A DNA stretch of 64,000 bases. Origin: Gemmatimonadota bacterium (GTDB lineage: Bacteria > Gemmatimonadota > Gemmatimonadetes > Gemmatimonadales > Gemmatimonadaceae). The DNA lies in assembly GCA_002737115.1 (NCBI GenBank), contig NSHR01000008.1, forward strand, positions 1-64,000. Reading direction: 5' to 3'. Made by a program: the position numbers and the translations under genes. Within the stretch, counting starts at the first letter, position 1, and every line of letters begins with the position of its first letter. This document shows positions 17,298 through 36,260 of this stretch, piece by piece. The notes under the pieces are model-generated. The model had not been told where the DNA came from. It did no database searches and saw nothing but the letters and a program-made list of their open reading frames with translations.

Positions 17298-17470
17298 GGC
17301 GTGGAACGTAGCGCTTTCGGGCGTTGGTATCTCTGCGTGATCAGTACCTCCCAACGGCAGATCAGCTGAGCCCCTTCGCCAGCGTCCGTTACGCGGAAAG
17401 CCCGCTCCGGAAAGCATGGGCCGGTGATAGCTTACTTGGTCCCTCTTCCACCCCTGCCAGGCGTCTTCCC

Positions 17471-20400
17471 ATGCGTTTCTCCGCCCTTCTGACGCCGCTC
17501 GCCTGCGGTGTCCTTTTCCAGACCGTAGTGGCCCCGTCGGTTGCGAGCGCCCAGGCCCCGCGCGCCGCGGCCGGGCTCCCGGCACTCGACTCGACCACGT
17601 TCACGGCGTTGTCGTGGCGCAACATCGGCCCGTTCCGCGGCGGCCGATCGGTGGCGGCGGTGGGATTGCCGTCGCAGCCGCTCACGTACGTGGCCGGCTA
17701 TACCGGCGGCGGCTTGTGGCGCACCGACGACGCCGGCAACAGCTGGCGCAATATCTCCGACGGCTTCTTCAAGACGGGGTCGGTGGGCGCGATCGCGGTG
17801 GCGCCCAGCGACGAGAACGTGATCTACGTGGGCATGGGAGAGCATGCGATCCGAGGCCAGTCGTCGACGTATGGCGACGGCATGTACAAGAGCACCGATC
17901 AGGGGCGCACCTGGACCCACATCGGCCTCGCCACCTCGCGGCAGATCTCGGCCGTGCGCGTGCACCCGAGCAACCCCGAGGTGGTGTATGTCGCGGTGCA
18001 GGGTGATCGCTGGAAGGGCACGAGTGATCGCGGCATTTACCGCACGACGGATGGCGGCAAGACGTGGACGCAGCTGCTGAAGGGCGAGAACGCGTTCAGC
18101 GGCGCGAGCGACCTGTCGATGGACGCCACGAACCCGCGCATCTTATACGCGGCGATGTGGGATCATCAGCGCACGCCGTGGATGGTGCGCAGCGGCGGCG
18201 CCGGCAGCGGGATTTGGAAGTCGGTGGACGGCGGTGATACGTGGAAGCGCAGTCAGGAAGGGTTGCCGAAGCTGGTGGGCAAGATCGGTGTGTCGGTGTC
18301 GCCGGCCAATCCCGATCGCGTGTACGCGATGGTGGAAGCGGAGAACGGTGGTCTGTTTCGCAGTGACGATGCCGGTAAGACGTGGCGGCAGATGTCGGGC
18401 GACCGGCTGATTCAGACGCGCTCGTGGTATTACATGAACATCACGGCCGATCCGAAGAACGCCGAGGTGGTGTGGGTGAGCAACGCGCCATTGCTCAAGA
18501 GCATCGACGGCGGGCGCACGTTCGCCAATGTGCCCGCCACGCATGGCGACAATCACGGCCTCTGGATCAACCCGACCAACCCGAATTACCTGATCAATGC
18601 GAACGATGGCGGCGCGTCGATCTCGCTGGATGGTGGCAAGAGTTGGAGCACGCAGGACAATCAGCCCACGTCGCAGTTTTATCACGTGGCGGTGGATGAC
18701 GGCTTTCCGTACAAGCTGTACGGCGGCCAGCAGGACAACAGTTCGGTGATCATCCAGTCGAAGAGCGACGGTGGTAGCATCGGCATTCGCGAGTGGACCG
18801 AAGGCCCTGGCTGCGAAAGCGCGAACATGGGTGTGAGCGCCAAGAACCCGCGCTACGTGTACGGCGGCTGCTATCAGGGGCTGATTGACGAGCTGGATGC
18901 GACCAACGGTCTGGGACGCACGATCATGCCGTGGCCGGAGATGAACCTCACCGAGCCCACGGACAAAACGAAGTACCGCTTCAACTGGACAGCGCCGATC
19001 GAAGTGTCGATGCACGACGACAAGGTCGTGTATCACGGCGGCAACGTGCTGTTCAAGACGACCACGCGCGGACAGAGCTGGACGCCGATCTCGGGCGACC
19101 TCACGCGCAACGACAAGACGCGTCAGGGGTGGGGTGGTGGTCCGATCACCAACGAAGGCGCCGGCGGCGAAGTGTACGCCACGATTGTGGTGATCGAAGA
19201 GTCACCGCACGATGCCAACACGATGTACGTGGGCACCGACGACGGGCTCATTCAGCGCACACTCGATGGAGCCAAGACGTGGACGAATGTCACGCCGGCC
19301 GCGTGGGGCGATGGCCTGGTGAACGAGATCGCGATTTCGCCGCACGATGCGGGCACGATCTATGTGTCGTTCCGGAAGGATCGCCTGGGCGACCCGACGC
19401 CGCACATTTTCATGTCGAAGGATTACGGTGCCACGTTCACGCGCATTGTGAACGGCCTGCGCGACGGGGAGCCGGTACGTGTGGTGCGTGAAGACACCGA
19501 GCGCAAAGGCTTGCTGTACGCCGGCACGGAAACGGGCGTGTATGTGTCGTATGATGCCGGGGCGCAGTGGCTGCCGTTCCGCGGCAACTTCCCGGTGGTG
19601 CCGGTGACGGACTTGCAGGTGAAGCACGGCGACTTGATCGCGGCCACCGAAGGGCGCGCCTTCTGGATTCTCGACGATCTCACGGTGCTGCGTCAGCGCG
19701 CCGATGCCATCGAGAAGGCGGCGATGCACCTGTACGCGCCGCGCGCCGCGGTACTGGCCGGCAGCGGCGGCGGCTTCGGGTCGCCGCGCAATGCCGGCAA
19801 GAATCCGCCGTACGGCGCGGTGATCAACTTCCGCCTGGCGGCGGCGCCCGATACGGCCACGACGTTGCTGCTCGAGTTCCTCGACGTGAAGAACAGCGTG
19901 GTGCGCTCCTTCGCCACAAAGGGCGACACGGTGAACAAGCTCACCGTGAAGACGGGATTGAACGCCTTCAACTGGAACCTGCGCCGTGCGGCGCCGGCGC
20001 GGTTGGCAGGCGTGCTGCTGTTTGGTGCGCCGAGTGACGGTGGTGCGCGCGTGGTGCCCGGTACGTACACGGTGCGTCTCACCATGGGCAGCACGGTGCT
20101 CACGCAGAAGCTCGAGGTGAAGCAGGACCCGCGTCTCGACGTGCCGGCGCGTGTGGTGGCCGAACGGGATTCGGTGGCGAACCTGCTGTCGAACCGCATC
20201 AATGAAATTCACGAGGCGGTGTTGCGCGTGCGTGATCTGAAAACGCAGGTGCAGGGCTACGTGACGCGCGCCAAGGAAACGAGTGCGCCGGATACGATCG
20301 CCAAGGCGGGTCGCACGCTCACGACCAAGCTGGGTGCGCTCGATCCGAAGATGACCACCAAGGCCGGCAATGGGCAGGACATCATCAACTACGCCAACGG

Positions 20401-20626
20401 CATCAACGGTCAGTACGGCTTCCTGCTGGGGCAGGTGGAAGGCAACAGCGAACTCACGCAGCCGGTGAAGGATCGGTTGATGGAGCTCGAGAAGCTGTGG
20501 CAGACGCTCAAGGCTGACGTGGAGCAGGTGGAAACGGTGGACGTGAATGCGTTCAACGCGCTGCTGCAGAAACACAACGTGCCGGGTGTGATCAGTGGCG
20601 CGAAAAAGAAGGGGCCGATTGCATGA
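17471..20626 (+). CDS. BNR/VPS10 (sortilin-like) beta-propeller exported protein, paralog 2
   Basis: From MRFSALLTPLACGVLFQ signal peptide; 'LSWRNIGPFRGGRSVAAVGLPSQPLTYVAGYTGGGLWRTDDAGNSW' and many Asp-box repeats. Confidence 0.9.
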   Translation: MRFSALLTPLACGVLFQTVVAPSVASAQAPRAAAGLPALDSTTFTALSWRNIGPFRGGRSVAAVGLPSQPLTYVAGYTGGGLWRTDDAGNSWRNISDGFFKTGSVGAIAVAPSDENVIYVGMGEHAIRGQSSTYGDGMYKSTDQGRTWTHIGLATSRQISAVRVHPSNPEVVYVAVQGDRWKGTSDRGIYRTTDGGKTWTQLLKGENAFSGASDLSMDATNPRILYAAMWDHQRTPWMVRSGGAGSGIWKSVDGGDTWKRSQEGLPKLVGKIGVSVSPANPDRVYAMVEAENGGLFRSDDAGKTWRQMSGDRLIQTRSWYYMNITADPKNAEVVWVSNAPLLKSIDGGRTFANVPATHGDNHGLWINPTNPNYLINANDGGASISLDGGKSWSTQDNQPTSQFYHVAVDDGFPYKLYGGQQDNSSVIIQSKSDGGSIGIREWTEGPGCESANMGVSAKNPRYVYGGCYQGLIDELDATNGLGRTIMPWPEMNLTEPTDKTKYRFNWTAPIEVSMHDDKVVYHGGNVLFKTTTRGQSWTPISGDLTRNDKTRQGWGGGPITNEGAGGEVYATIVVIEESPHDANTMYVGTDDGLIQRTLDGAKTWTNVTPAAWGDGLVNEIAISPHDAGTIYVSFRKDRLGDPTPHIFMSKDYGATFTRIVNGLRDGEPVRVVREDTERKGLLYAGTETGVYVSYDAGAQWLPFRGNFPVVPVTDLQVKHGDLIAATEGRAFWILDDLTVLRQRADAIEKAAMHLYAPRAAVLAGSGGGFGSPRNAGKNPPYGAVINFRLAAAPDTATTLLLEFLDVKNSVVRSFATKGDTVNKLTVKTGLNAFNWNLRRAAPARLAGVLLFGAPSDGGARVVPGTYTVRLTMGSTVLTQKLEVKQDPRLDVPARVVAERDSVANLLSNRINEIHEAVLRVRDLKTQVQGYVTRAKETSAPDTIAKAGRTLTTKLGALDPKMTTKAGNGQDIINYANGINGQYGFLLGQVEGNSELTQPVKDRLMELEKLWQTLKADVEQVETVDVNAFNALLQKHNVPGVISGAKKKGPIA

Positions 20627-21885
20627 CAGCAGTGATGAGTTTTGGGTTTCGGGTGGTGCGTGTGACGGCGCTGGCGGTCGGGTTGGCCACGCCCGCGCTG
20701 GCGCAGAAGAAGAGCGTGATGGTCGCGCCGTACGTGCCGCCGACGGGGGCGTGGGAACGTCGCTCGCCCTCGGCGATGGGAATGGATTCGGTGAAGCTGG
20801 CCGACGCCATCGCCTACGCCGTCGAGAAGGAGAGCAAGACACCGCGCGATCTCGAGCTCAATCACTACCAGACGTTCGGTCGTGAGCCCTTCGGGGCCGC
20901 GATCGGACCGCTGGCACCGCGTGGTGGCGCCACGGGTGTGATCGTGCGCAAAGGCTACGTGGTGGCCACGTGGGGTGATCCCACCGCGGTCGAGATCGTG
21001 AACAGCGTGACCAAGAGTTTTCTGAGCACGGTGGTGGGGCTGGCCGTCGATGCGGGTCGCATTCGCAGTGTGGATGACACGGTGTCGCAGGTGATGCCAC
21101 CGATTCTGCGGGCGTATCCGAACAGCACAGGACTCGGTGCCGATTGGCCAGGCGATGCCAAGTGGTTACGCCCGTTCGACAGTCCGCACAACAAACGGCT
21201 CACGTGGGATCACCTGCTGCGTCAGGTGAGCGACTGGGAAGGCACGCTGTGGGGCAAGCCCGAGTGGGCCGATCGTCCGGCACAGCAGGTGAACACGTGG
21301 ACCACACGCCCACGCGTGGAGCCGGGTTCGGCGTACGAGTACAACGACACGCGCGTGAACGTGCTGGCGCTGGCGGCGTTGCAGGTATGGCGTCAGCCGC
21401 TGCCGGACATTCTGCGTGACAAAATCATGGAGCCGATTGGCGCGTCGAACACGTGGCGCTGGTACGGTTACGACAACTCGTGGATCGTGCTCGACGGCAA
21501 GTTGGTGCAGTCGGTGAGCGGTGGCGGCCACTGGGGCGGCGGCATGATGATCAACGCCTGGGACATGGCGCGCTTCGGATTGCTCACGCAACGTCGCGGC
21601 GTGTGGGGCGGCAAGCAGCTGCTCTCCGAGGCATGGGTGACCAAGGCCCTCACGCCCACGCCGGCGCAGCCGACGTACGGCTACATGAACTGGTTCGTGA
21701 ACACCGACCGCAAGTACGTGCCGGCGGCACCGCCGCAGGCCTTCGTGCACGTTGGCGCCGGCAACAACATCATTTACGTGGACCCGGTAAACGATGTGGT
21801 TGCGGTGGTGCGCTGGATCGACAGCAATGCGTCGGTGAACGGATTCGTGGAACGGCTGCTGGCGGCGTTGCCGCCCGCCAAGTAA
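20623..21885 (+). CDS. Serine hydrolase, beta-lactamase/transpeptidase-like (class C-type fold)
   Basis: 420 aa; SxxK 'SVTKSFLS', YxN 'YEYNDTRVN', 'GGHWGGGMMINAWDMARFG'; overlaps the upstream stop by ATGA (20623-20626). Confidence 0.87.
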   Translation: MTAVMSFGFRVVRVTALAVGLATPALAQKKSVMVAPYVPPTGAWERRSPSAMGMDSVKLADAIAYAVEKESKTPRDLELNHYQTFGREPFGAAIGPLAPRGGATGVIVRKGYVVATWGDPTAVEIVNSVTKSFLSTVVGLAVDAGRIRSVDDTVSQVMPPILRAYPNSTGLGADWPGDAKWLRPFDSPHNKRLTWDHLLRQVSDWEGTLWGKPEWADRPAQQVNTWTTRPRVEPGSAYEYNDTRVNVLALAALQVWRQPLPDILRDKIMEPIGASNTWRWYGYDNSWIVLDGKLVQSVSGGGHWGGGMMINAWDMARFGLLTQRRGVWGGKQLLSEAWVTKALTPTPAQPTYGYMNWFVNTDRKYVPAAPPQAFVHVGAGNNIIYVDPVNDVVAVVRWIDSNASVNGFVERLLAALPPAK

Positions 21886-22280: not shown

Positions 22281-22386
22281 TCGAGCGGCGCGTCGGCGCT
22301 GGCGAGGCAGGGTAGGGGGAGTCATGAGGCGCGTGTTGGACTGGCATGGGCGGCGGCGCTATCTCTGCGTTACCTACGAGGTACCG

Positions 22387-23367
22387 ATGCGATCGATCCG
22401 ATGTGTACGGCTTTCCGTTCTCGCGCTCGTGTGGCTCCCCGCCTGCAAAAGCACCGTCTCCGATCCCCCGCCGGTAACACCGGTAACACCGCCAGTGACA
22501 CCGGTGGCAGACTCCTGGACCGTCAGTGGCGGCACCGCGGCGCTCAACATGCAGTCGGCATGGAGTCGTGGCGCGGTCACCTATGTGGGCGGTGCCACCG
22601 GCGTGTACCGCTCGGACGATGCCGGCGCGACGTTTCGCCCGTCGAACACCGGCAACGACGCCGTTGGACCCACGCGTGGCTTCGCGGATGACGCGACGTA
22701 TCTCTACTCGGCCACCAGCCAAGGTGTCTTTCGCAGCAGTGATGCGGGTGCCACATGGGGCGCGCGTAGCATCGGCATGACCGAGACGCGTACCAGCGGG
22801 ATCGTGAAGGCTGGCACGCGACTGTACGTGGTGGGGCCGAGCGGTGTCTTCCGCTCCGACAATCAGGGCGACAGCTGGGCGGCGGCCGGGCTGGCCGGGG
22901 TGGACGTGCGCAGCATCGCTGCCCTCGGCGATGTGGTGTTCGTGGGCACGGTCGGATCCGGGGTCATGAAGAGCGTCGATGGCGGGACCACCTGGGTACC
23001 CAGCAACACCGGACTGACGGCCACCACCTTTCGCGCCATCGAGGCGAAGGGCACCAGCCTTTTTCTCGGCGGTGAGATCGGGACGGGGGTCTTCCGGTCC
23101 AATGACGGCGGCGCGACCTGGTCCCCGCTGGCGGGAGGGCTCCCCTCCTCCACGTATCGCGGCTTCGCCAGCAACGCGCAGTTGATCGTGGCCGGCGCGT
23201 TCGGGTTAGGCGTGTTCTACTCGAAGACCAACGGCGACACATGGGCCGAGCTGAACACCGGTCTCGGTGACAAGACCATTTTTGATCTGGTTATTAGCAA
23301 CGGATTTCTCGTGGCGGCCACGAACACGGGCGGGGCGTTCCGCATTCCGCTGTCGGCCCTGAAATAG
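22387..23367 (+). CDS. BNR-repeat (exo-sialidase-like fold) lipoprotein
   Basis: MRSIRCVRLSVLALVWLPACKSTV lipobox; Pro/Thr/Val linker 'DPPPVTPVTPPVTPV'; repeated 'VYRSDDAGATF', 'VFRSSDAGATW', 'VFRSDNQGDSW', 'MKSVDGGTTW', 'VFRSNDGGATW'. Confidence 0.85.
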   Translation: MRSIRCVRLSVLALVWLPACKSTVSDPPPVTPVTPPVTPVADSWTVSGGTAALNMQSAWSRGAVTYVGGATGVYRSDDAGATFRPSNTGNDAVGPTRGFADDATYLYSATSQGVFRSSDAGATWGARSIGMTETRTSGIVKAGTRLYVVGPSGVFRSDNQGDSWAAAGLAGVDVRSIAALGDVVFVGTVGSGVMKSVDGGTTWVPSNTGLTATTFRAIEAKGTSLFLGGEIGTGVFRSNDGGATWSPLAGGLPSSTYRGFASNAQLIVAGAFGLGVFYSKTNGDTWAELNTGLGDKTIFDLVISNGFLVAATNTGGAFRIPLSALK

Positions 23368-23531: not shown

Positions 23532-25181
23532 TTGAACCATGATGGAGGCCGCATGGTTGAACAGGGACGCGGGGGCGAAATGCCCGCTCACGCCGCGGAG
23601 ACCGTCCAGGAAGCGACCGCAGACTTTTCTCCGTCGAGCGACGGGGTCGATGCGTCGATGCTGACTCGTCGGGCCTGGCTCCGGAGTGGGATTGCGGTGG
23701 CAGCCGGCGCGGCCGCGGTTGGCGCGGTCCCGGAGCGGAGTGAGGCACAAGCGTCCTCCAATCGCTACGGCTCCGTCTTCAGCCAGCTTGGTCAGCAGGT
23801 GACATGGCAGTCACCGGAACTGCGGTTGCTTCGCCGCATTTCGCTGGGCATCACGGCGGCCGAGGTGTCGCGCGTTCAGCGGTTGGGGTACGGGGCGTAT
23901 CTCGAGGAGCAGTTGGCCTGGGAAGCGATCGATGACCGCGCCTGCGAGGAGCACTTGGCGCGTGGGTTTTCCGATTTTGAAGCGCTGACGCCCCGGGACA
24001 CGCTGGTTCACCAGGCAGCCAACACGCTGGGGCCGTACGTCCTGGATCCCTACCAGCGTCACGTGGCCGAGCGCGCAATTCTGGGCAAGCGGCAGCTTCA
24101 GGAGCGCATGGTGGAGTTCTGGACCGACCACTTTCACGTGAATCTGTGGGTGTTTGGCGGTCTCAAGCCGTTTCATGATCTGGTGGCGATTCGTCCGTTG
24201 TCCCTCGCGTCTGTCGGCGCCTTGGTCCGTGCCACCATGCGCAGTCCCGCCATGCTGCACTACCTGGACCAGGTGTGGAGTACGAAGTGGGGGGTGAACG
24301 AGAACTATGCCCGCGAGCTGATGGAGCTGCACACGGTGGGCGTCGAAGGCGGATACACGCAGCAGGATGTGCATGGGCTGGCGCGCATCCTCACCGGATG
24401 GTCGGTGGACGAGCGAGGCGAGTTCGAGTACAAAGCGTACAACCATGACTTCGGCGCCAAGTCGTGCTTCGGCATGACCTTTCCTGAGACGCCGCCGGGC
24501 CCTCGCACGGCGGGCATGGAGGAGGGCGTCGCCTTCGGCGAACACCTCATCCGTCATCCGAAGACCAAACGGTATATCGCCACCAAGTTGCTGAAATGGT
24601 TTGTGTCGCCCACGCCCAGTGCGACACAGGTGCAAGCTGTCGTGAACGCCTACGGTGAGGAGGGCGACATCAAGGCCATGTTACGCGTGGTCTTGTCACC
24701 GGCGAATGTCCAGCGGGCACCAGCCAAGCTGAAACGGCCGTTTCATTTTGTCGTGTCCGCCATACGGGGGACCGGCGCCGAGGTCCGGTCGCGTGTGAAC
24801 TACCGCACGGACAACGACGGCATCGGGGGGATTCTGGGGTCACTTGGGCATGCCGTCGGCAACTGGCAGACGCCGGATGGCTACCCTGACCGCGCGGATT
24901 TCTGGGCGGGCATGATCGTGGATCGATGGAATGCGACAGAGCAACTCGCGCAGAACGGGAACACGAGCCGCGGCAGCGTCATCACCGACTTCGCGGGGTT
25001 TGTCGAGGATGGCACGGTGGACGGCGTGGTCGCTGGCATGAATAGGCGCCTGTTCGGTGGCGAGATGTCCGCGCCGCTGGCCACCGAGATCCGCAATACG
25101 CTCCGCTCCGGGGTGACGACGAGTCGGCTGCAGAACGCGGTCCGTCTCGCGCTCATCTCCCCCGAATTTCAGTTCTACTGA
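23532..25181 (+). CDS. DUF1800 domain-containing protein, Tat-type signal
   Basis: 549 aa; 'LTRRAWLRSGIAVAAGAAAVGA'; 'LLRRISLGITAAEVSRVQRLGYGAYLEEQL', 'ERMVEFWTDHFHVN', 'NENYARELMELHTVGVEGGYTQQDVHGLARILTGWSVD' are DUF1800 signatures. Confidence 0.92.
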   Translation: MNHDGGRMVEQGRGGEMPAHAAETVQEATADFSPSSDGVDASMLTRRAWLRSGIAVAAGAAAVGAVPERSEAQASSNRYGSVFSQLGQQVTWQSPELRLLRRISLGITAAEVSRVQRLGYGAYLEEQLAWEAIDDRACEEHLARGFSDFEALTPRDTLVHQAANTLGPYVLDPYQRHVAERAILGKRQLQERMVEFWTDHFHVNLWVFGGLKPFHDLVAIRPLSLASVGALVRATMRSPAMLHYLDQVWSTKWGVNENYARELMELHTVGVEGGYTQQDVHGLARILTGWSVDERGEFEYKAYNHDFGAKSCFGMTFPETPPGPRTAGMEEGVAFGEHLIRHPKTKRYIATKLLKWFVSPTPSATQVQAVVNAYGEEGDIKAMLRVVLSPANVQRAPAKLKRPFHFVVSAIRGTGAEVRSRVNYRTDNDGIGGILGSLGHAVGNWQTPDGYPDRADFWAGMIVDRWNATEQLAQNGNTSRGSVITDFAGFVEDGTVDGVVAGMNRRLFGGEMSAPLATEIRNTLRSGVTTSRLQNAVRLALISPEFQFY

Positions 25182-25191
25182 GGAGCCACGC

Positions 25192-26469
25192 ATGTCCGAC
25201 CGTCACCAGCGCCCCGTGGGGTGCAACGAGTATGAGCAAGTGCATCGTCGCCGGTTCCTTCAGTGGGCGGGCGCCGGTGCCGCGGCGACGGTGGTTCCGG
25301 CGTGGATGCCGGAGATGCGCTTCGCCGAGTCGGCGGACACCGCCCGCGACATCATCGTGTCGATCTTCCTGCGTGGCGGCGCCGATGGCCTCTCGATGGT
25401 GGTCCCGTTCGCCGATGCGGCGTATTATCGCGGCCGACCCACCATTTCCGTGCCGCGGCCGGATTCGACATCCCCCAATCGGGGCAGTGCGCTCGACGAT
25501 CACTTCATGCTGCCACCCGCGATGCGGGCCTTGCTGGCGCCGTACCGGGCGGGCGACCTGCTGTTCGTCCAAGCGGCGGGGCAGCGGTACACGAAATCAC
25601 GATCGCACTTCGAGGCGGAGCGGTACCTCGAACAGGGGAAACCGGATGATTATCTCATCCAGAGCGGATGGCTCGCTCGGCATCTGGCGATGGTCCCCCC
25701 ATTGAATGCGGACGCCTCTCTTCGGGCGATCTCGGTCACGTATGGCGTCCCCCACACCCTGACGGGGGCGCCCCGCACGCTGTCGATCCCCAGACCCGAC
25801 CAGTTTCAGGTTAACACGCCGTCGGAGCTGGCGCTCCAGCGACTGTACAGCACCGCGTGGGCGCCGCTCCGTGACAGCGCCATGGACGCGCTTGGCACCG
25901 CCAACATGCTGCGCATGCTGGACTTCGACGGCTACCGTTCCTCGAATGGGGCGACGTATGGCACCGACAATTTCGGACAGGCGCTCAAGTCGATCGCCGT
26001 GCTGATCAGGGGTGACGTTGGGCTCGAGGCGGCCCACGTGGATCTCGGCGCCTGGGATACACATGCCAATCAGGGCACCGTCGGTGGTTCGATGGCCGGC
26101 GTCATGGAGGAGCTGGCCGCGGGGCTCGGCGCGTTCTGGCAGGACGTGATGCAAGGCGCCCGGTCCACCCGAGTGACGCTGGTGGTCACCACGGAGTTCG
26201 GGCGCAACGCGCGCGAGAATGGCTCGATGGGGACAGACCATGGCCGGGCCAGCGTGATGTTCGTGATGGGTCCCGCGATCGCTGGCGGGCGGGTCCTCAC
26301 CGACTGGCCGGGGCTCGAGCGGGAAGAGCTCGAAGACGGTCAAGACCTTCGGGTGACCATCGATACGCGCGACGTGCTTGCCGAGATCGTCCAACGCCGT
26401 CTGAGCAACTCGAACCTGTCGGTGGTGTTCCCCGATTATCTCCCGCGTTTCCGTGGAGTCACGAGATGA
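25192..26469 (+). CDS. DUF1501 domain-containing protein, Tat-type signal
   Basis: 425 aa; 'HRRRFLQWAGAGAAATVVP', 'IVSIFLRGGADGLSMVVPF', 'HVDLGAWDTHANQG', 'VVTTEFGRNARENGSMGTDHGRASVMFVMG'. Confidence 0.93.
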   Translation: MSDRHQRPVGCNEYEQVHRRRFLQWAGAGAAATVVPAWMPEMRFAESADTARDIIVSIFLRGGADGLSMVVPFADAAYYRGRPTISVPRPDSTSPNRGSALDDHFMLPPAMRALLAPYRAGDLLFVQAAGQRYTKSRSHFEAERYLEQGKPDDYLIQSGWLARHLAMVPPLNADASLRAISVTYGVPHTLTGAPRTLSIPRPDQFQVNTPSELALQRLYSTAWAPLRDSAMDALGTANMLRMLDFDGYRSSNGATYGTDNFGQALKSIAVLIRGDVGLEAAHVDLGAWDTHANQGTVGGSMAGVMEELAAGLGAFWQDVMQGARSTRVTLVVTTEFGRNARENGSMGTDHGRASVMFVMGPAIAGGRVLTDWPGLEREELEDGQDLRVTIDTRDVLAEIVQRRLSNSNLSVVFPDYLPRFRGVTR

Positions 26470-26921
26470 AGGTGATGCGCGTGGTGTGGTTCGCGGCGAG
26501 CCTGTTGGGCGCGACGGCCTGTGAGGGGGCGATGGGCCCGGCTGGCCCGCAGGGTCCGGCCGGTCCGGCTGGTCCACAGGGGGTGCCGGGGGGTCAGGGG
26601 CAGACCGGTCCCACTGGTCCTGCCGGTCCTGCCGGTCCGCAGGGGCCGTCCGGTCTGGTGAACCGATCCGAGGCCACCGGCCTGTTTGACGCATCGGGTT
26701 CGTACACGATGACCTTGCCGTCCGCCTCGGTGGCCAACAACAAGCTGCCCTTTGTGGCATGCTGGATGTCCATCGACGGAAAGACCTGGATTTCCGTGAG
26801 CCAAGCCCCGGCGATTGCGGGTGATGTCTTCTGCGGCCTGACAGGTATTGGTACGGCTCCCGGCGTGACCATCGTGAATGGCGTGGCGGGTTGGCGGTAC
26901 TATTTGCTTGCCATGTGGTAA
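26466..26921 (+). CDS. Collagen-like repeat protein, probable lipoprotein
   Basis: 151 aa; signal then Cys at codon 19 and 15 consecutive G-x-y triplets (GAM GPA GPQ GPA GPA GPQ GVP GGQ GQT GPT GPA GPA GPQ GPS GLV); ATGA overlap with the DUF1501 stop (26466-26469). Confidence 0.88.
   Translation: MKVMRVVWFAASLLGATACEGAMGPAGPQGPAGPAGPQGVPGGQGQTGPTGPAGPAGPQGPSGLVNRSEATGLFDASGSYTMTLPSASVANNKLPFVACWMSIDGKTWISVSQAPAIAGDVFCGLTGIGTAPGVTIVNGVAGWRYYLLAMW
26526..26660 (+). repeat. 9-bp-periodic collagen-like G-x-y coding repeat (15 triplets)
   Basis: Direct translation of 26526-26660. Confidence 0.9.
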
Positions 26922-29551
26922 TGCCACGCCCCCGCTTGCCCGCCCGCGTCGTGCGCCGGTGGTCCCTCGGTGTGCTGATCGGCGGTGTGGCCTGCACCGC
27001 GGTCACGGACACGCCCTCGCCGGCGCTCCAGGCCAGCGCGGAGGTCACGGTCACGCTGCCGGCGGTCCATCTCGGCCCCGATGCGATTCAGGCCGCGAGT
27101 GCGGACATCCAGCTGATTCCGGCCAATCGTGCTCAGGCCGTGTTGGGCAGGCAGACGCGAGCCGCCGACCAGTTTACGCAGGCGGTCACGGTACCGGTCA
27201 ACATCGCGCCGTGCAGCGGCGCGACCACCAGTTGCAGTGCGGTCGTGGTGGTCCGCTTCCTGAATGCCGCGGGGGTCATGATCGACTCCACGGAGGCCGG
27301 TCCGTTCACGATCATCGGCGGCGGCCGCACCGCCGCACCCAGTGTGCAGCCCAGGGTCACCGCGCGGCTGGCCAGTCGGGACACCGTGCTGCGGGCGTCG
27401 TTCAGGAGTGCCGTGCGGGCCTCGATCGAGGCCTTCGACGCCACTGGGGCCGTGCTGCCGGGCCGGATCTTTCAGTGGCGATCGGCCGACGCCGCGATCG
27501 CCACCGTCGACTCCACCGGGGCGGTCACGGCGCGCGCGGTCGGGCGCACGGTGGTCACGGCGACGCGGGAGGGCAACACCATGTCACTCCCCGTGGAATC
27601 GCCCGCGGTCGAGCTCTTTTCGGTGTCGGCTCCGAGCGCCCCCGTGATGGCGCAAGGTTCCGCCAAGTTGTTGATCACCTTGCTCACCGCGCCCGGGCAG
27701 TCCCAACGCCTTCGAATCGAAAGCAGTGATTCCAGCGTGGCCACGGCGGATGCCGCTGGGGTCATCACCCCGTTGCGGGAAGGGGTGGTGCAGTTCACCG
27801 TGCGCCCCGAGGCCGACTCTACGCGCCGTGCGTCGGCGACGCTTATCGTGGATCCCTTTCGCGCCGCCGTCTCCTGGCGCGCGATGGCATCCGGACCGCT
27901 TGGGAACGTTCCCAGCACGGTGCAAGGCGTGTGGGGCGCCGATGATCAGGCGGTGTGGGCGGCCACGTGCGGCGCCATTTCGTTCTACGACGGCAACAGC
28001 TGGCGGGCCGACTTCTACCGCACAGTGCAGGGGTTTTGTGCGAATGGCATGACCGGTACATCGCGCACCGACGTGTACGCGGTGGGAAACCAGATCTGGC
28101 GCTATGACGGCGCCGGCTGGGTGCGCCAACCCGTCACCTTTAGTGGGAATCTGCTGGCGGCGGTGATGGTCGACGGGGAGGTCGTTGCGGTGGGTGACAA
28201 CGGCTTGATCGTTCGAGGTCGCGGATCCAGCTGGCGTACCATGCCCTCGGGAACGAACCGGACGCTGCGCCGCATCGCGAGTGACGGCCGCACCGCGTAC
28301 ATCGCGGGGGACAACGGCACCCTGCTGCGTCTCGAGAACGACCAGTGGGTGCGTGTCTCGTTTCCGAATGCCCCCGATTGGTACGACGTGCTCGTGAAGA
28401 GTGCCACGGAGGTGTATGTGGCTGGCGCCGACCACTCCCTTGCCTTGCACTACCTCGTGCAGCGCTATGACGGGCGCACGTGGACGACGATCCCGGTTGA
28501 TCGTCCTGCGGCGTGCTGCAACATGCGGTTGCTCTTCAACACCGGTGGCAGCATTCGGGCCCTCGGTGATGGGGATTGGATCTTCCGTCTCGAGGACGGT
28601 CGTCTGGTGCAGGAATTCCGAGGCCAGTTCGGCGGGATCTTCACCAGCTGGGCGAATGGGAACACCGTCATGCTGGGCGGCCACAACTCCTCCACGATCG
28701 TGCGGCGCAATGGGACGTGGACCCGACTGTCCTCCAACACGAGCTTCAACGCCATGTGGGCGACGTCCCCCAGCTTCATCGTGGGCGGCGGCGACGGTGG
28801 CATCGACCTGTTCAACGGCACGTCTTGGTCGTTGATGCGCGGGGACGTCTACCGATCGATCAGCACGATCTGGGGGAGTGGTCCGACTGATATCTGGGCC
28901 GTCGGGTCACCCAACACGTTCTTGCGCTTTCGCGGTGCGGCGTGGGAGCAATGGCCATCCGTCAGTACCGCCACCGCCACCGGTATCTGGGGTGTTGCCC
29001 GGGACACCGCGTGGGCCGTGTTCAACAATGGCGACATCATGCGGTTCAACGGCACCGCATGGCAAACCATTTTCCGCACGCGCACGCCGCTCAACGCCAT
29101 CCACGGCAGCGGCGCTCGGCATCTCATTGCGGTCGGGACCGAGGGTCGTGTCTGGGTCTACGGGGGCCGCCTCTGGCAGCAGGAAGACAGCGGCATTGAC
29201 GAGCAGATCCAGAAGGTGTGGGTGTTCGACAGCCTGACCGCCTTTGCCACGGCCGGCAACAAGCTGTTGGAGCGCCGGAACGGCGTATGGCGCTCCTGGA
29301 CGTTCCCGTCGAACATCAACTTCCAATGGGTGATGGGAACGGGACCGCGGGATGTGTATGCCGGCGGTTGTGGCTCACCGATCGTGCGGTACGACGGTAC
29401 CGCGTGGAGTCCCGTGGAGTCACAGAACGTCACCAACTGTGCCTTCGGTGCACACGTGTTCCCAACCGGTGGACTGATCGCTGGGAACTGGAACCGCACC
29501 ATCATTATCGGCACGAGCCCGTTCGGTGTGTCGCCCGGGCTTCCGCGGTAG
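26921..29551 (+). CDS. Large surface protein: two Big_2-like Ig domains + multi-blade beta-propeller
   Basis: 877 aa from ATG in TAATG overlap; 'IATVDSTGAVTARAVGRTVVTATREG' and 'SVATADAAGVITPLREGVVQFTV' Big_2 signatures; at least nine repeats of the form x-A-V-G-x-x-G-x-[IV]-x-R-[FY]-[DN]-G-x-x-W (e.g. VYAVGNQIWRYDGAGW, IWAVGSPNTFLRFRGAAW, TAWAVFNNGDIMRFNGTAW). Confidence 0.85.
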   Translation: MPRPRLPARVVRRWSLGVLIGGVACTAVTDTPSPALQASAEVTVTLPAVHLGPDAIQAASADIQLIPANRAQAVLGRQTRAADQFTQAVTVPVNIAPCSGATTSCSAVVVVRFLNAAGVMIDSTEAGPFTIIGGGRTAAPSVQPRVTARLASRDTVLRASFRSAVRASIEAFDATGAVLPGRIFQWRSADAAIATVDSTGAVTARAVGRTVVTATREGNTMSLPVESPAVELFSVSAPSAPVMAQGSAKLLITLLTAPGQSQRLRIESSDSSVATADAAGVITPLREGVVQFTVRPEADSTRRASATLIVDPFRAAVSWRAMASGPLGNVPSTVQGVWGADDQAVWAATCGAISFYDGNSWRADFYRTVQGFCANGMTGTSRTDVYAVGNQIWRYDGAGWVRQPVTFSGNLLAAVMVDGEVVAVGDNGLIVRGRGSSWRTMPSGTNRTLRRIASDGRTAYIAGDNGTLLRLENDQWVRVSFPNAPDWYDVLVKSATEVYVAGADHSLALHYLVQRYDGRTWTTIPVDRPAACCNMRLLFNTGGSIRALGDGDWIFRLEDGRLVQEFRGQFGGIFTSWANGNTVMLGGHNSSTIVRRNGTWTRLSSNTSFNAMWATSPSFIVGGGDGGIDLFNGTSWSLMRGDVYRSISTIWGSGPTDIWAVGSPNTFLRFRGAAWEQWPSVSTATATGIWGVARDTAWAVFNNGDIMRFNGTAWQTIFRTRTPLNAIHGSGARHLIAVGTEGRVWVYGGRLWQQEDSGIDEQIQKVWVFDSLTAFATAGNKLLERRNGVWRSWTFPSNINFQWVMGTGPRDVYAGGCGSPIVRYDGTAWSPVESQNVTNCAFGAHVFPTGGLIAGNWNRTIIIGTSPFGVSPGLPR

Positions 29552-30623: not shown

Positions 30624-33239
30624 CTACTTGTCCGTATCCAGCATCGTCTTGATCTGATCGCGTGCGTCCATCAGGTGCGCGCGGGTCGTGCGATCACTGG
30701 CGCGACCGACGGCCGCCGCCAGCTCACGGTCGAGCGAGCGCATTTCATCCTTGAGTAACGGACGGAAATCGCGCGTGTTCACCACCGCTTGACCGAACAA
30801 GGCGGCCAGCGCCGCGTCCTGTGCGTTCGGGGCGGGCGGCTTGATCTTGCTCGCCATCGCCTCGAGGTAGGTGGTCTGCAAGCGACGACGATACGCGTCG
30901 ATCGGCTTGCCCGCGTAGATCTCGCTCCAGAGGCCCTTCCGCAGGTCGGTGAGCATTTCGCCCAGCGAGTAGACCTCGCTCTTGTTCGTGGCCATTGCCT
31001 CGAACTCCACCATGCGCTGCAGCTTGGCGTTCTGCACCAGCGACGACAGGGTGCGCGCCTGCGCACCGCTCACGCGGTTGATGTTGCCGTCCGACTCGAT
31101 CTTGCGGAGGATGTCCGGCTTGATCATCGCGGTGGGCGTGGTGAACACCTCGTCGTTCAGGAACTTCACGGCGTCCTTCTGACGGGCGCGCGGCACCATC
31201 GTCCACACCGGTCCGCTCTGGCTGACGGCCTTTTCCTGCTTGTCGAGGCCACCGACCACACGTGTGACGTGCTGCGCTTCGGTGGCCCACTGACCGAGCA
31301 CGCCGGAGTACGTGGCGCGCAGCAGCGAGTAGTCGGCCGTCTTGTCGGTGGTCGACGCGGGCACGACGAGATCCACGATGCGACGCAGGTTCTTGAAGCC
31401 AAGGCGCGTGGACTTCACGGCATCGGCATCACCGATCGCTTCCGACTGCTCGCCGGGATCGACCTGACCACCACCGTAGCGGTACCACGGTACGGTGTCC
31501 TGCATGCGGGCCCACGAATCGAGCGTCGTCTTCTCGTCTTCCGGACGCTTCGCGTTCGGGATGGGCGTGTAGCCCCACTTCACCGCGAACGTGTCGTAGG
31601 TGCCGACCTTCGGCACGAGATCGCCGAGCGCGATACCGTCTTCGGGCTGCGCGACGTAGTTGAAGCGCGCGTAGTCCATGATCGACGGCGAATGCCCCAT
31701 CTTCGCGACCCACGTCTTACTGCGGACCGAGTCGACCGGGTACATCGAGCTGCTCTTGAAGTTGTGCGGGAAGCCGAGGGTGTGGCCGACTTCGTGCGCG
31801 GCGACGAACTGCACGAGGCGTCCCATGAGAGAATCGGGGAACGGGAACGTCTGCGCGCGCTTGTCGAGATGGCCGACCTGCGAGAAGTACCACTCGCGCT
31901 GGAGGTCCATGATGTTGTGATACATCTGCACGTCGGCGTCGATGATCTCGCCGGTGCGCGGATCCACGGTGCTGGGTCCCACGGCATTCGCGACCGGCGA
32001 CGGCAGCCAGCGCACCATCGCGACGGATGCATCTTCACCCGAGAAGTCGGGATCGTTCGGTACGACGCCGGCCACGATGCCCTTGGCGAAGCCGGCCTGT
32101 TCGAAGGCGCCCTGCCACTCTTCGATACCGGCCTTGATCCACGGCTTGAGCCAATCGGGCGTGGCTGGATCCACGTAGTACGTGATCGGCTTCTTGGGCA
32201 CGCACAGATTGCCGACCTTCTGATCGGAGCATTCGAGGCGCCAGCGCGAGATGTATCGACGCGGCAGCACGCGCTGCTCGGCTGACCCGAAATCGGTTTT
32301 GTTCGGGCCGAAGAAGCCAACGCGCGCGTCATTGAACCGCGGCATCATCGGCACGTCGGGAAGACGCACGATGGAGAAGGTGAACGCTTCGGTCGTGGCC
32401 TGGGCACCGCCGGCATTGAGCCCCGGAATGGCGGGGAGTCCACCGCCGCCACCGATCGGCGTAAAGGTTTGGGTCGCGGTCACGTTCACGTTGCGCGCGA
32501 ACGCGGCGAACTTCTCGATGAACGATCGCGAGGCGTCGACGGTAGCGCGGCGGCCACCGGCGGTGAACTCCTGGATGCCACCGGTGAACATGCGCGTCAC
32601 TTCGACCACGGCCGCGCTGTCCTTGCCGTAGGCTTCGACGTTGAGCGCCGCGATGATCGGATAGACTTCGATCAACGACATCGCGAGTCGCGTGGACAGC
32701 GTGCTGTCGGTGGCGACGTTGTTGTAGTTGATGTCGCGCACGAGAATGCGATTGTCGCGGCGCTCGAAGCGGATCACGCGGTCGGGACCGAGCGTGCCGT
32801 TGATGCCGATGCCCGCGGGCGTACCAGCGAGGACGGTGGTGACGACGAAGTCCTTACCGATTTCGCTCTTGGGAAGCTCGAAGTAGAGGCGCGACCCCAC
32901 CTGGTGCACGCCGAAGACACCGGTCTTCGTCTTGGCGCGCGGCGTGATCACCGTGGCGTACGGGCGCGGGGCGGGGTCAGCGCCGCCGCCGCCGAGGCCG
33001 GCGAGTCCTGCGGCGAGTCCAGCAGGCAGGCCACCGGCGGGCGGCTGGCCGGGCGTGGGCTGGCCGGGCGTGGGCTGACCCGGCGTGGGCTGACCCGGCG
33101 TGGGCTGACCGGGTGTGGGCGTGCCATTCTGGGCGGTCGGGCGAGCGGCAGGCGTCGGAGCGGTTGTCGGCTTTTTGGCCGGCTGACACGCGGCGAGCGC
33201 GAGCCCTGCCGCGGCCAGCGGGAGGGAGCGAAAGCGCAT
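30624..33239 (-). CDS. Zinc-dependent metalloprotease lipoprotein (DUF5117/DUF5118-type), paralog A
   Basis: 871 aa; 'GLALAACQPAKKPTT' lipobox; (PTPGQ)n linker; 'HEVGHTLGFPHNFKSSSMYPVDSVRSKTWVAKMGHSPSIMDYARFNYVAQPED' metzincin-like HExxHxxGxxH. Confidence 0.92.
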   Translation of the reverse strand: MRFRSLPLAAAGLALAACQPAKKPTTAPTPAARPTAQNGTPTPGQPTPGQPTPGQPTPGQPTPGQPPAGGLPAGLAAGLAGLGGGGADPAPRPYATVITPRAKTKTGVFGVHQVGSRLYFELPKSEIGKDFVVTTVLAGTPAGIGINGTLGPDRVIRFERRDNRILVRDINYNNVATDSTLSTRLAMSLIEVYPIIAALNVEAYGKDSAAVVEVTRMFTGGIQEFTAGGRRATVDASRSFIEKFAAFARNVNVTATQTFTPIGGGGGLPAIPGLNAGGAQATTEAFTFSIVRLPDVPMMPRFNDARVGFFGPNKTDFGSAEQRVLPRRYISRWRLECSDQKVGNLCVPKKPITYYVDPATPDWLKPWIKAGIEEWQGAFEQAGFAKGIVAGVVPNDPDFSGEDASVAMVRWLPSPVANAVGPSTVDPRTGEIIDADVQMYHNIMDLQREWYFSQVGHLDKRAQTFPFPDSLMGRLVQFVAAHEVGHTLGFPHNFKSSSMYPVDSVRSKTWVAKMGHSPSIMDYARFNYVAQPEDGIALGDLVPKVGTYDTFAVKWGYTPIPNAKRPEDEKTTLDSWARMQDTVPWYRYGGGQVDPGEQSEAIGDADAVKSTRLGFKNLRRIVDLVVPASTTDKTADYSLLRATYSGVLGQWATEAQHVTRVVGGLDKQEKAVSQSGPVWTMVPRARQKDAVKFLNDEVFTTPTAMIKPDILRKIESDGNINRVSGAQARTLSSLVQNAKLQRMVEFEAMATNKSEVYSLGEMLTDLRKGLWSEIYAGKPIDAYRRRLQTTYLEAMASKIKPPAPNAQDAALAALFGQAVVNTRDFRPLLKDEMRSLDRELAAAVGRASDRTTRAHLMDARDQIKTMLDTDK
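33046..33125 (-). repeat. 15-bp tandem repeat encoding the (PTPGQ)n linker
   Basis: ggcgtgggctgacccg-type unit repeated ~5 times with a few substitutions. Confidence 0.85.
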
Positions 33240-33337: not shown

Positions 33338-35947
33338 TTAGTTCTTCGGGTCGAGCATCATGGCGATCTGATCGCGCGCATCCTCGAGATGCGCCTTGCT
33401 CATGCGATCGCTGGTTTTGGCAATCGCGACCACCAGATCGGCGTCGAGGGCGCGCATTTCACTCTTGAGGATCGGGCGGAAGTCGGCGGTGGAAACCGGA
33501 GCGGCGCCGCCACGACCACCACCGGGGGCCTGCGGGGCCGCCGCCGCGGCGGGCGGGTTGATCTTGCTCGCCATCGCTTCGAGGTACACGCGTTGCAGAC
33601 GACGACGGAAGGCATCGATCGGCGCGCCGGTTTCGATTTCCTTCCACAGGCCGCGGCGGAGATCGGTGAGCATGTCGGCCACCGGATACACCTCGCTCTT
33701 CGACTTGGCCATTGCTTCCAGCTCGACCATGCGAGCGAGGCGGTCGTTGCTGACCACCGACGCCAGTGAGCGTGCTTGCGCGCTGCCCACGCGATTCAAG
33801 CTGCCGCTCGACTCGATCTTGCGCAGAATGCTCTCGTCGAGCAGCCACGTCGGCGTAGCGTACGCGTTGTCGAGCAGGAACTGGACGGCGTCTTTCTGGC
33901 GCTTGGGCTCTACGTTCTGCCACACGACGCCTTTCTGGCCCACCAGCTTCTCCTGCTTGTATTCGCCGCCGATGATACGCGACACGTGGCCCATTTCGGT
34001 GGCCCACTGTCCCACGGTGCGGCCGTACATCTCTTCGAGGTCGTCGTACGTGCTGCCGTCCTTCCACGCGGTGGCCGCCTCCAGCATGGCCATGGTGCGC
34101 TTGAGGTTCTTCACACCGAGCGTGGTGGCCTTCACGGCATCAGCATCGCCCACGGCTTCCGACTGCTCGCCGGGATCGGCACCCTGCGCGCCGCCGTCGC
34201 TGGCGAAGCGGTACCACGGGATGGTGTCCTGCATCTTTGACCACTTGTCGAGCGTGGCCTTCTCCGCTTCCGGCGTCTTGGCGTTGGGAATTGGCGAATA
34301 GCCCCACATCACCGCGTACTTGTCATACGGACCGACCTTCGGGATCAAGTCGTCGAGTGCGATGCCGTCTTCCGGCTGCGCCACGTAGTTGAAGCGCGAG
34401 TAGTCCATGAGGGTGGGCGTGTGGCCATTCTTGGCGACCCATGTCTTCGAGCGGACCGAGTCCACGGGATACATGGAGCTCGCTTTGAAGTTGTGCGGGA
34501 AGCCGAGCGTGTGTCCTACTTCGTGCGCGGTCACGTACTCGAGCAAGCGGCCGGCGAGTGTGTCGGGGAACGGGAACTTCTGCGCACGCTTGTCGAGATG
34601 GCCGGCCTGCGTGAAGTACCACGAGCGCCCGAGGTTCATGACGTTGAGATACGTCTGCACGTCGGCGTCGATGATTTCACCAGTACGCGGATCCTTGAGG
34701 CTCGGACCGACGGCGTTTTCGGTGGACGACGGGAGCCAGCGCACCATGGCGACGGTGGCGTCTTCACCGGAGAAGTCGGGATCATTGGTCGGTGCGTCGG
34801 CGGCGATGATGCCCTTGTAGAAGCCGGCGGCTTCGAACGCCACCTGCCAGTCTTCGATGCCCTTCTTGATCCACGGCTTGATCCACGCCGGTGTGGCGGG
34901 GTCGAGGTAATACGTGATCGGCTTCTTGGGCACGCAGAGATTGCCGACCTTTTTGTCGGAGCACTCGAGGCGCCAGCGCGAGATGTAGCGCTTGGTTTCC
35001 ACGCGCTGGGTGGCACCGGAGAAATCGCGCTGACTGACGCCGAAGTACCCCACGCGTTCATCGAGCAGGCGCGGCTGCATGGGGACGTCGGGCAATTTGG
35101 CGATCGAGAAGGTGTACTTCTCGGTCGTGGGTGCCGTCGCGGCCGCTGCGGCACCGCCACCGCCGCCACCACCACCACCACCGGGCGCACCGCCCTGCGG
35201 CGTAAAGCTCTGCACGGCGGTGACGTTCACGTTGCGCGCGTAGGCGGCGAAGCGATCGATGTACGAACGCGCGGCATCGACGGTGGCGCGGCGACCGAGC
35301 GCGGTGTATTCGGCCACGCCGCCGGTGAACATGCGCGTGACTTCCACCACGGCCGAGCTGTCGGGGCCGAACGCTTCGATGTTGAGCGCGGCGAGAATCT
35401 TGGTAACGCCGATGAGTTCAGCGGCCATGCGCTGTGAGGCGGCGCTGTCGGCGATGATGTCGCCGTAATCGGCGAGGCGCACGAAGATGCGATTCTCGCG
35501 ACGTTCGAAGCGCACGAGGTTGTTGCCACCCTGCGTACCACGAATGCCGATTTCATCCGGCGTGCCGGCGAGCGTGGTGACGATGACGTAGTCCTTGCCG
35601 AGTTCCGCACGCGGGATTTCGAAGTACAAGCGGCTGCCGACCGAGTGGACCTTGAACACGCCGCTCTTGGTAATGGCGCGCGGCGTGATGACGGTGCCGT
35701 AGGGGCGCGGCTGCGGGTCCTGCGCGGCGTTGGCACCGCCCTGGGCGCCGCCTTGGCCACCGCCTTGACCACCGCCTTGACCACCGCCTTGATTCGGCGC
35801 ACCGGCGGGACGTCCGGCCGGTGCCGTGGTGGGGACGGCCGTGGGGGCGGCCGTGGGGGTCGGGGCAGGAGCTGGCGTCGAGATTTTTTGGACGCAGGCG
35901 CCGAGCACGAGGCCGGCGGCGGCGATCGACAGTGAAGTGTGTCGCAT
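33338..35947 (-). CDS. Zinc-dependent metalloprotease lipoprotein (DUF5117/DUF5118-type), paralog B
   Basis: From MRHTSLSIAAAGLVLGACVQKIS lipobox; linker NQGGGQGGGQGGGQGGAQGG; same HEVGHTLGFPHNFKASSMYPVDSVRSKTWVAK core as paralog A. Confidence 0.92.
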   Translation of the reverse strand: MRHTSLSIAAAGLVLGACVQKISTPAPAPTPTAAPTAVPTTAPAGRPAGAPNQGGGQGGGQGGGQGGAQGGANAAQDPQPRPYGTVITPRAITKSGVFKVHSVGSRLYFEIPRAELGKDYVIVTTLAGTPDEIGIRGTQGGNNLVRFERRENRIFVRLADYGDIIADSAASQRMAAELIGVTKILAALNIEAFGPDSSAVVEVTRMFTGGVAEYTALGRRATVDAARSYIDRFAAYARNVNVTAVQSFTPQGGAPGGGGGGGGGGAAAAATAPTTEKYTFSIAKLPDVPMQPRLLDERVGYFGVSQRDFSGATQRVETKRYISRWRLECSDKKVGNLCVPKKPITYYLDPATPAWIKPWIKKGIEDWQVAFEAAGFYKGIIAADAPTNDPDFSGEDATVAMVRWLPSSTENAVGPSLKDPRTGEIIDADVQTYLNVMNLGRSWYFTQAGHLDKRAQKFPFPDTLAGRLLEYVTAHEVGHTLGFPHNFKASSMYPVDSVRSKTWVAKNGHTPTLMDYSRFNYVAQPEDGIALDDLIPKVGPYDKYAVMWGYSPIPNAKTPEAEKATLDKWSKMQDTIPWYRFASDGGAQGADPGEQSEAVGDADAVKATTLGVKNLKRTMAMLEAATAWKDGSTYDDLEEMYGRTVGQWATEMGHVSRIIGGEYKQEKLVGQKGVVWQNVEPKRQKDAVQFLLDNAYATPTWLLDESILRKIESSGSLNRVGSAQARSLASVVSNDRLARMVELEAMAKSKSEVYPVADMLTDLRRGLWKEIETGAPIDAFRRRLQRVYLEAMASKINPPAAAAAPQAPGGGRGGAAPVSTADFRPILKSEMRALDADLVVAIAKTSDRMSKAHLEDARDQIAMMLDPKN
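35750..35795 (-). repeat. 12-bp tandem repeat encoding the (GQGG)n linker
   Basis: ccaccgccttga unit repeated 3-4 times. Confidence 0.8.
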
Positions 35948-36260
35948 GCGGTTCTGTCTCTGGGAGGGGACGTGGCCCGGGCGCGCGTTGTGGCGCACCA
36001 GTTGCCACAAAATTACGCGCTGTGGTGCTGGGGTGCTGGCGGGTGGTTCCTGAGCCTACTTCAGCTCACGGCCGCGGCACCCGCCGCATCAGCTCCTCGC
36101 GACCGCCGCGCGTGCGTCCGGTCTGGTTGGCGGTAGCGTCAACCCGATGGCGCTGCCGCAATGTTGCACCGCTGGCGCATTTCTGGTGACGAGCCCGGAA
36201 GGTGTCACCAGTATTCTGCGCGATGCCTGCTTGCCTTCCCTGCGCCGAGTGGAATAACCT

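Follow-up and report, generated by a model that had tools for sequence, protein, structure and literature searches.

A lineage-specific DUF1800-DUF1501-collagen gene unit in Gemmatimonadaceae and the type II secretion linkage of its nearest paralogue

Proteins with DUF1800 and DUF1501 domains are found in many phyla, and the literature examined gives no biochemical function for them. DUF1501 appears in PMC4452313 as a domain without biochemical or other characterization, and PMC5122149 presents the DUF1800/DUF1501 pair as a known operon tied to bacterial chitin synthases in Proteobacteria. In the 64,000-nucleotide stretch of a Gemmatimonadota metagenome-assembled genome (MAG, 57% complete) analysed here, hereafter the window, such a pair is tightly followed by genes for a collagen-like lipoprotein and a Big2/propeller lipoprotein. 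This locus raises the question of whether the four genes form a fixed unit, and of what the pair might do together with such companions. The features concerned are as follows:

22384..23367, + strand: BNR/Ycf48-like propeller lipoprotein gene, 164 nt upstream of the DUF1800 gene
23532..25181, + strand: DUF1800 gene (PF08811), 549 aa; TTG start with GGAGG upstream, Tat-type signal, all-helical predicted fold
25192..26469, + strand: DUF1501 gene (PF07394), 425 aa; Tat signal RRRFLQW, predicted alkaline-phosphatase-superfamily fold
26466..26921, + strand: collagen-like lipoprotein gene, 151 aa; lipobox C19, 15 Gly-X-Y triplets, 88-aa C-terminal head
26526..26660, + strand: Gly-X-Y stretch of the collagen-like gene, 15 triplets
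26655..26918, + strand: head domain of the collagen-like gene, 88 aa; two invariant Cys, Trp at the end, no Pfam family
26921..29551, + strand: Big2 plus beta-propeller lipoprotein gene, 876 aa plus stop; lipobox C25

The order and spacing of the four genes given in the initial annotation were confirmed on the plus strand: DUF1800 and DUF1501 are separated by 10 nt, DUF1501 and the collagen-like gene overlap by 4 nt (ATGA), and the collagen-like and propeller genes overlap by 1 nt (TAATG). The propeller protein, given there as 877 aa, actually comprises 876 aa plus the stop. The Shine-Dalgarno-like GAGGAG of DUF1501 overlaps the stop codon of DUF1800. Co-transcription of the four genes as one unit, as originally proposed, is likely in view of this tight packing; terminator-like sites across the region were fewer than expected by chance, and the promoter and terminator scans of the region yielded nothing convincing beyond chance. 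Relative to the orthologues in G025, the dN/dS values were 0.20 for DUF1800, 0.19 for DUF1501, 0.22 for the collagen-like gene and 0.21 for the propeller gene, which marks each of the four as a genuine gene subject to purifying selection. In-frame ATG codons at 23553, 23580 and 23658 are possible alternatives to the TTG start of DUF1800. The upstream BNR/Ycf48-like propeller gene is present in G017 and missing from the corresponding place in G025, and it probably lies outside the conserved unit. Upstream ORFs of 211-243 aa, common to several loci of clade A (see below), were dropped because they belong to no family and have a composition typical of antisense ORFs.

Three types of DUF1800/DUF1501 pair were distinguished in the genus: clade A, to which the window pair belongs, clade B and clade C, with DUF1501 proteins approximately 53% (clade B) and 37% (clade C) identical to that of clade A. 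Clade C pairs occur in most of the family and across much of the order, and G000:C22 is one of them. Clade A has a support of 100/100 in the tree and takes in a locus of another genus (G121:C43). It was counted as 11 loci in three genera of one family, including two genomes of the third genus (G185 and G282) that were found via the collagen head and added outside the tree, as their DUF1501 proteins are nearer to that of G121 (65-71%) than to clade B (51-55%). The collagen-like lipoprotein gene lies directly 3' of DUF1501 in all 11 clade A loci, and its 4-nt start/stop overlap with DUF1501 is identical in 10 of them, the remaining locus (G121) having a gap of about 68 nt. The fourth slot is occupied by a Big2/propeller homologue in six loci (G000, G017, G025, G006, G018 and G013) and by an Ig-cupredoxin lipoprotein gene in four (G003, G121, G185 and G282), in one of which, G003, a Big2/RCC1 propeller gene stands behind the Ig-cupredoxin gene; nothing comparable was observed at this position in G029. 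No collagen equivalent was found after the pair in the other clades, which were sampled from Gemmatimonadota, Planctomycetota, Hydrogenedentota, Chloroflexota, Acidobacteriota and others. Thus, with the collagen-like gene constant and the fourth gene unfixed, the core is DUF1800-DUF1501-collagen plus a variable fourth module. The initial annotation had described a fixed four-gene cassette with the pair hard-wired to both companions; neighbour conservation upholds this for the collagen-like gene within clade A, and only in part for the propeller gene, which is exchanged in four loci and absent in one. The recurrence of the gene order in relatives, the conserved overlap and the dN/dS values of 0.19-0.22 indicate that the unit is not a product of chance.

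Both proteins of the pair match their Pfam families over nearly the full length (DUF1800: 332.8 bits, cut-off 26.1, E 5e-99, positions 1-418 of 419; DUF1501: 97.5 bits, cut-off 27, E 1e-27, positions 4-370 of 390). The Tat export claimed for the pair at the outset is consistent with the signals observed: the Pfam TAT_signal model scores above its cut-off in the DUF1501 product, and DUF1800 carries a Tat-type signal, TRRAWLRSGIAVAAGAAA, at residues ~45-75, with RR and a hydrophobic stretch judged by eye and with R47 invariant in alignment A2. A relationship of DUF1501 to the alkaline-phosphatase-like superfamily had also been put forward, and the PDB fold matches agree with it. The structure model of DUF1501 (pLDDT 88.5) gave nine matches with E<0.001, all in this superfamily, and the proteins matched include SPAP, BcsG, phosphonoacetate hydrolase, YejM, MCR-1 and LtaP. 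The best matches had E values of 2e-4 to 1e-3 at approximately 10% identity and low TM-scores of 0.24-0.47, so the fold assignment, which the model supports, applies at the superfamily level. Among 63 sequences, D65, S138, H139, D289, H291, E335 and D349 of DUF1501 are invariant and H350 is kept in 62, as would be expected of a metal-dependent active site; the usual alkaline-phosphatase nucleophile was not located in DUF1501. The DUF1800 model (pLDDT 84.6) is nearly all helical, many polar residues are invariant in the alignment, and its fold search against solved structures gave no match below E 0.8. Sequence searches of the PDB with DUF1800 and with DUF1501 returned no match for either.

The nearest paralogue of the window pair is the clade B pair, which is encoded outside the window, at the tail end of a type II secretion operon. 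Each of the 11 clade B loci mapped in the genus (L061-L071) has GspD-GspE-GspF immediately upstream of DUF1800-DUF1501; GspM is also within view in most of them, and a Big2/propeller gene lies within ~3 kb downstream in 10 of the 11. The operon encodes, according to Pfam, a secretin with GspD N0, T2SSE, T2SSF, T2SSM, a PilN-type GspL-like protein and N-methylated pseudopilin-like proteins, i.e., components of a type II secretion system (T2SS). The pair directly follows GspF in other genera as well (G125, G157, G111, G121 and G076), and the Gsp-linked arrangement was also seen, within the limits of the contigs, on L094-L098 and L100 from Gemmatimonadaceae/Gemmatimonadetes MAGs; it is missing in the wider-lineage members L072, L074, L081, L082, L084 and L085. 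Upstream of the clade A loci, the window cassette included, no Gsp genes were matched, and the genome that contains the window, 57% complete, yielded no secretin. The parts of the open literature naming either domain that were searched contained no mention of a T2SS link, and no useful literature on the T2SS in Gemmatimonas was found. Because the pair follows GspF in every clade B locus mapped in the genus, and likewise in five genomes from other genera, it might serve the T2SS/pseudopilus machinery as an accessory component instead of being a secreted enzyme; the window cassette would then be a paralogue that has been adapted to a different machine of the envelope. This is very improbable in our estimation, as T2SS genes are absent from the vicinity of most DUF1800/DUF1501 pairs in other phyla, and the Tat signals and enzyme-like fold would better suit a substrate of the system.

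Concerning the substrate of the pair itself, clade C pairs are located near a polysaccharide deacetylase gene in seven Gemmatimonadota loci, which, together with the chitin-synthase link given in PMC5122149, points to a glycan. The same two observations, and the presence of the cellulose phosphoethanolamine transferase BcsG among the best DUF1501 fold matches, would also suit a pair with a periplasmic role in the synthesis or modification of an exopolysaccharide, by transfer or removal of an ester or phospho-substituent, the T2SS neighbourhood of the paralogue being historical. As no glycosyltransferase or polymerase gene lies beside the window cassette and the companions are stalk and propeller lipoproteins typical of surfaces, we consider such a role quite unlikely.

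Lipobox signals in both the third and the fourth product predict that these are lipoproteins: ATAC19 in the collagen-like product, where the Cys at the signal end is kept in the relatives, and the lipobox-like LIGGVAC25 at the start of the propeller product (both motifs identified by eye). The Collagen Pfam match scored 29.3 bits against a cut-off of 27.2; the stretch comprises 15-19 Gly-X-Y triplets in the relatives, and the 15 triplets of the window protein, if they form a triple helix, would give a stalk of ~13 nm (computed as 45 residues x 0.286 nm). In the propeller protein, Big_2 matched above its cut-off with 42 bits, best at residues 184-216, and at least 12 propeller-type repeats (V-[WY]-A-V-G ... 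W) occupy residues 345-830, leaving room for more than one propeller. The NCBIfam search of both proteins gave sub-cut-off matches only, and no useful literature on collagen lipoproteins in Gemmatimonadetes was found. The 88-aa collagen head was present in 15 of 179 family genomes, within the cassette in 11 and standing alone, without a DUF1800/DUF1501 pair, in 4 (G262, G329, G015 and G375). Adhesins are numerous among the known collagen-like proteins of bacteria, and the collagen-like and propeller proteins might likewise be surface adhesins that merely share a promoter with the pair, all products being required in the same situation, on a surface or in a biofilm, without forming a physical complex. 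The stand-alone heads and a fourth gene that is exchangeable or absent speak for such transcriptional companionship, which we nevertheless rate as rather unlikely: the constancy of the collagen-like gene in clade A and of its overlap in 10 of 11 loci fits stoichiometric coupling better, and the cassette accounts for 11 of the 15 head genes.

The explanation that we tentatively prefer, with somewhat less than even confidence, is that the window encodes a Tat-exported hydrolase or transferase pair that a T2SS brings to the outside and a trimeric collagen lipoprotein tethers or organises there, an exchangeable fourth module serving for recognition; the unit would then represent the widespread DUF1800/DUF1501 pair in a form adapted to display at the surface. 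The enzyme pair, trimeric stalk and ligand-binding propeller put forward in the initial annotation are so far inferences. Secretion of folded proteins by Tat and then by a T2SS is an established route. The two proteins would fold in the cytoplasm and cross the inner membrane via Tat, and a T2SS, as suggested by the paralogue, may carry them to the outside. DUF1501 would be the metal-dependent catalytic subunit and DUF1800 its helical partner, the putative substrate being an ester (phosphate, sulfate or phospho-substituent) on a glycan that is extracellular or lies at the surface. As a trimer, the collagen lipoprotein could stand off the outer membrane, its head holding the pair or the substrate, and the fourth protein (Big2-propeller or Ig-cupredoxin) might give specificity in binding or electron transfer.

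This surface-display explanation is favoured by the junction geometry, the collagen-like gene in 11 of 11 loci, the dN/dS values, the distribution of the head, the clade support, the DUF1501 fold with its invariant residues and the T2SS linkage of clade B, and, as regards a glycan substrate, by the deacetylase and chitin-synthase links. It is weakened by the lack of a T2SS gene beside the cassette and of a secretin in the incomplete genome, by the low TM-scores, the unlocated nucleophile and the DUF1800 model without a fold match, and by the head without the pair in four genomes and the propeller absent in 5 of 11 loci. The wider proposal that Gemmatimonadaceae possess a dedicated Tat-then-T2SS route to a surface DUF1501/DUF1800 enzyme, to which one lineage has added a self-encoded trimeric collagen tether and exchangeable recognition modules, appears unlikely at present. 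If true, it would constitute a previously undescribed system that displays an extracellular enzyme on a stalk. The clade B linkage hints that the widespread DUF1800/DUF1501 proteins act outside the cell, and the T2SS link of one paralogue together with the collagen link of another makes surface or extracellular, T2SS-dependent placement a testable prediction, for which the collagen lipoprotein offers a defined partner for pull-downs.

Compared to known systems, DUF1501 resembles the alkaline phosphatase superfamily (SPAP, BcsG, YejM, MCR-1 and LtaP) in its fold match and perhaps in its invariant Asp/His/Glu set, and differs in the low structural and sequence similarity (TM-scores 0.24-0.47, ~10% identity) and in being a predicted soluble, Tat-exported protein. 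The collagen-like protein shares the Gly-X-Y stalk with Scl1/Scl2 and Lcl, the NCBIfam stalk matches being far below the family cut-offs; however, its stalk is very short (15 triplets), its anchor is that of a lipoprotein rather than LPXTG, and its 88-aa head is its own, without a Pfam match. The T2SS-linked clade B pair (DUF1501 ~53% and DUF1800 ~39% identical) is often followed by a Big2/propeller gene, as in the window, whereas it directly follows GspF and has no collagen gene, and the window cassette has no adjoining Gsp genes. As in the known DUF1800/DUF1501 pair, both domains in the window are full length, adjacent and equipped with Tat-type signals; the differences are the absence of a chitin synthase nearby, the gene overlap to a collagen lipoprotein and the variable fourth gene. 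Taken together, the DUF1800-DUF1501-collagen unit represents a known gene pair in a lineage-specific form, and the genomic context that it adds is new and useful.

The genes flanking the DUF1800-DUF1501-collagen-Big2/propeller cassette include the following:

17324-21885, BNR-repeat-like exported protein of 1100 aa, with an overlapping beta-lactamase-family gene
22384-23367, same strand as the cassette and just upstream of it, BNR/Ycf48-like propeller lipoprotein
30624-33239 and 33338-36010, minus strand, putative zinc metallopeptidases, tandem paralogues HEVGHTLGFPHNF

The propeller lipoprotein directly 5' of the cassette, which bears a PVTPPVTPV linker behind its lipobox, is retained in genome G017 and is not found at that place in genome G025. 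Further upstream, the start of a beta-lactamase-family gene overlaps the stop of the BNR-repeat-like protein gene by 4 nt. The N-termini of the two metallopeptidases are set apart by low-complexity repeats (PTPGQ versus GGGQ).

In genome G262 (locus L193, 8382-16000), a stand-alone collagen-head lipoprotein adjoins, in opposite orientation, a GspE/GspE/GspF-type pilus or T2SS cluster. Among the paralogous DUF1800-DUF1501 pairs, clade C pairs at several loci are followed by, or lie near, a polysaccharide deacetylase gene (L060 7298-11735, G000:C22; L087-L089, L157, L158 and L165). Another pair is carried at the tail of a T2SS operon (L062 4829-15999; relatives L061-L071, L073-L080 and L094-L100), where a Big2/propeller gene often comes after it in those relatives.
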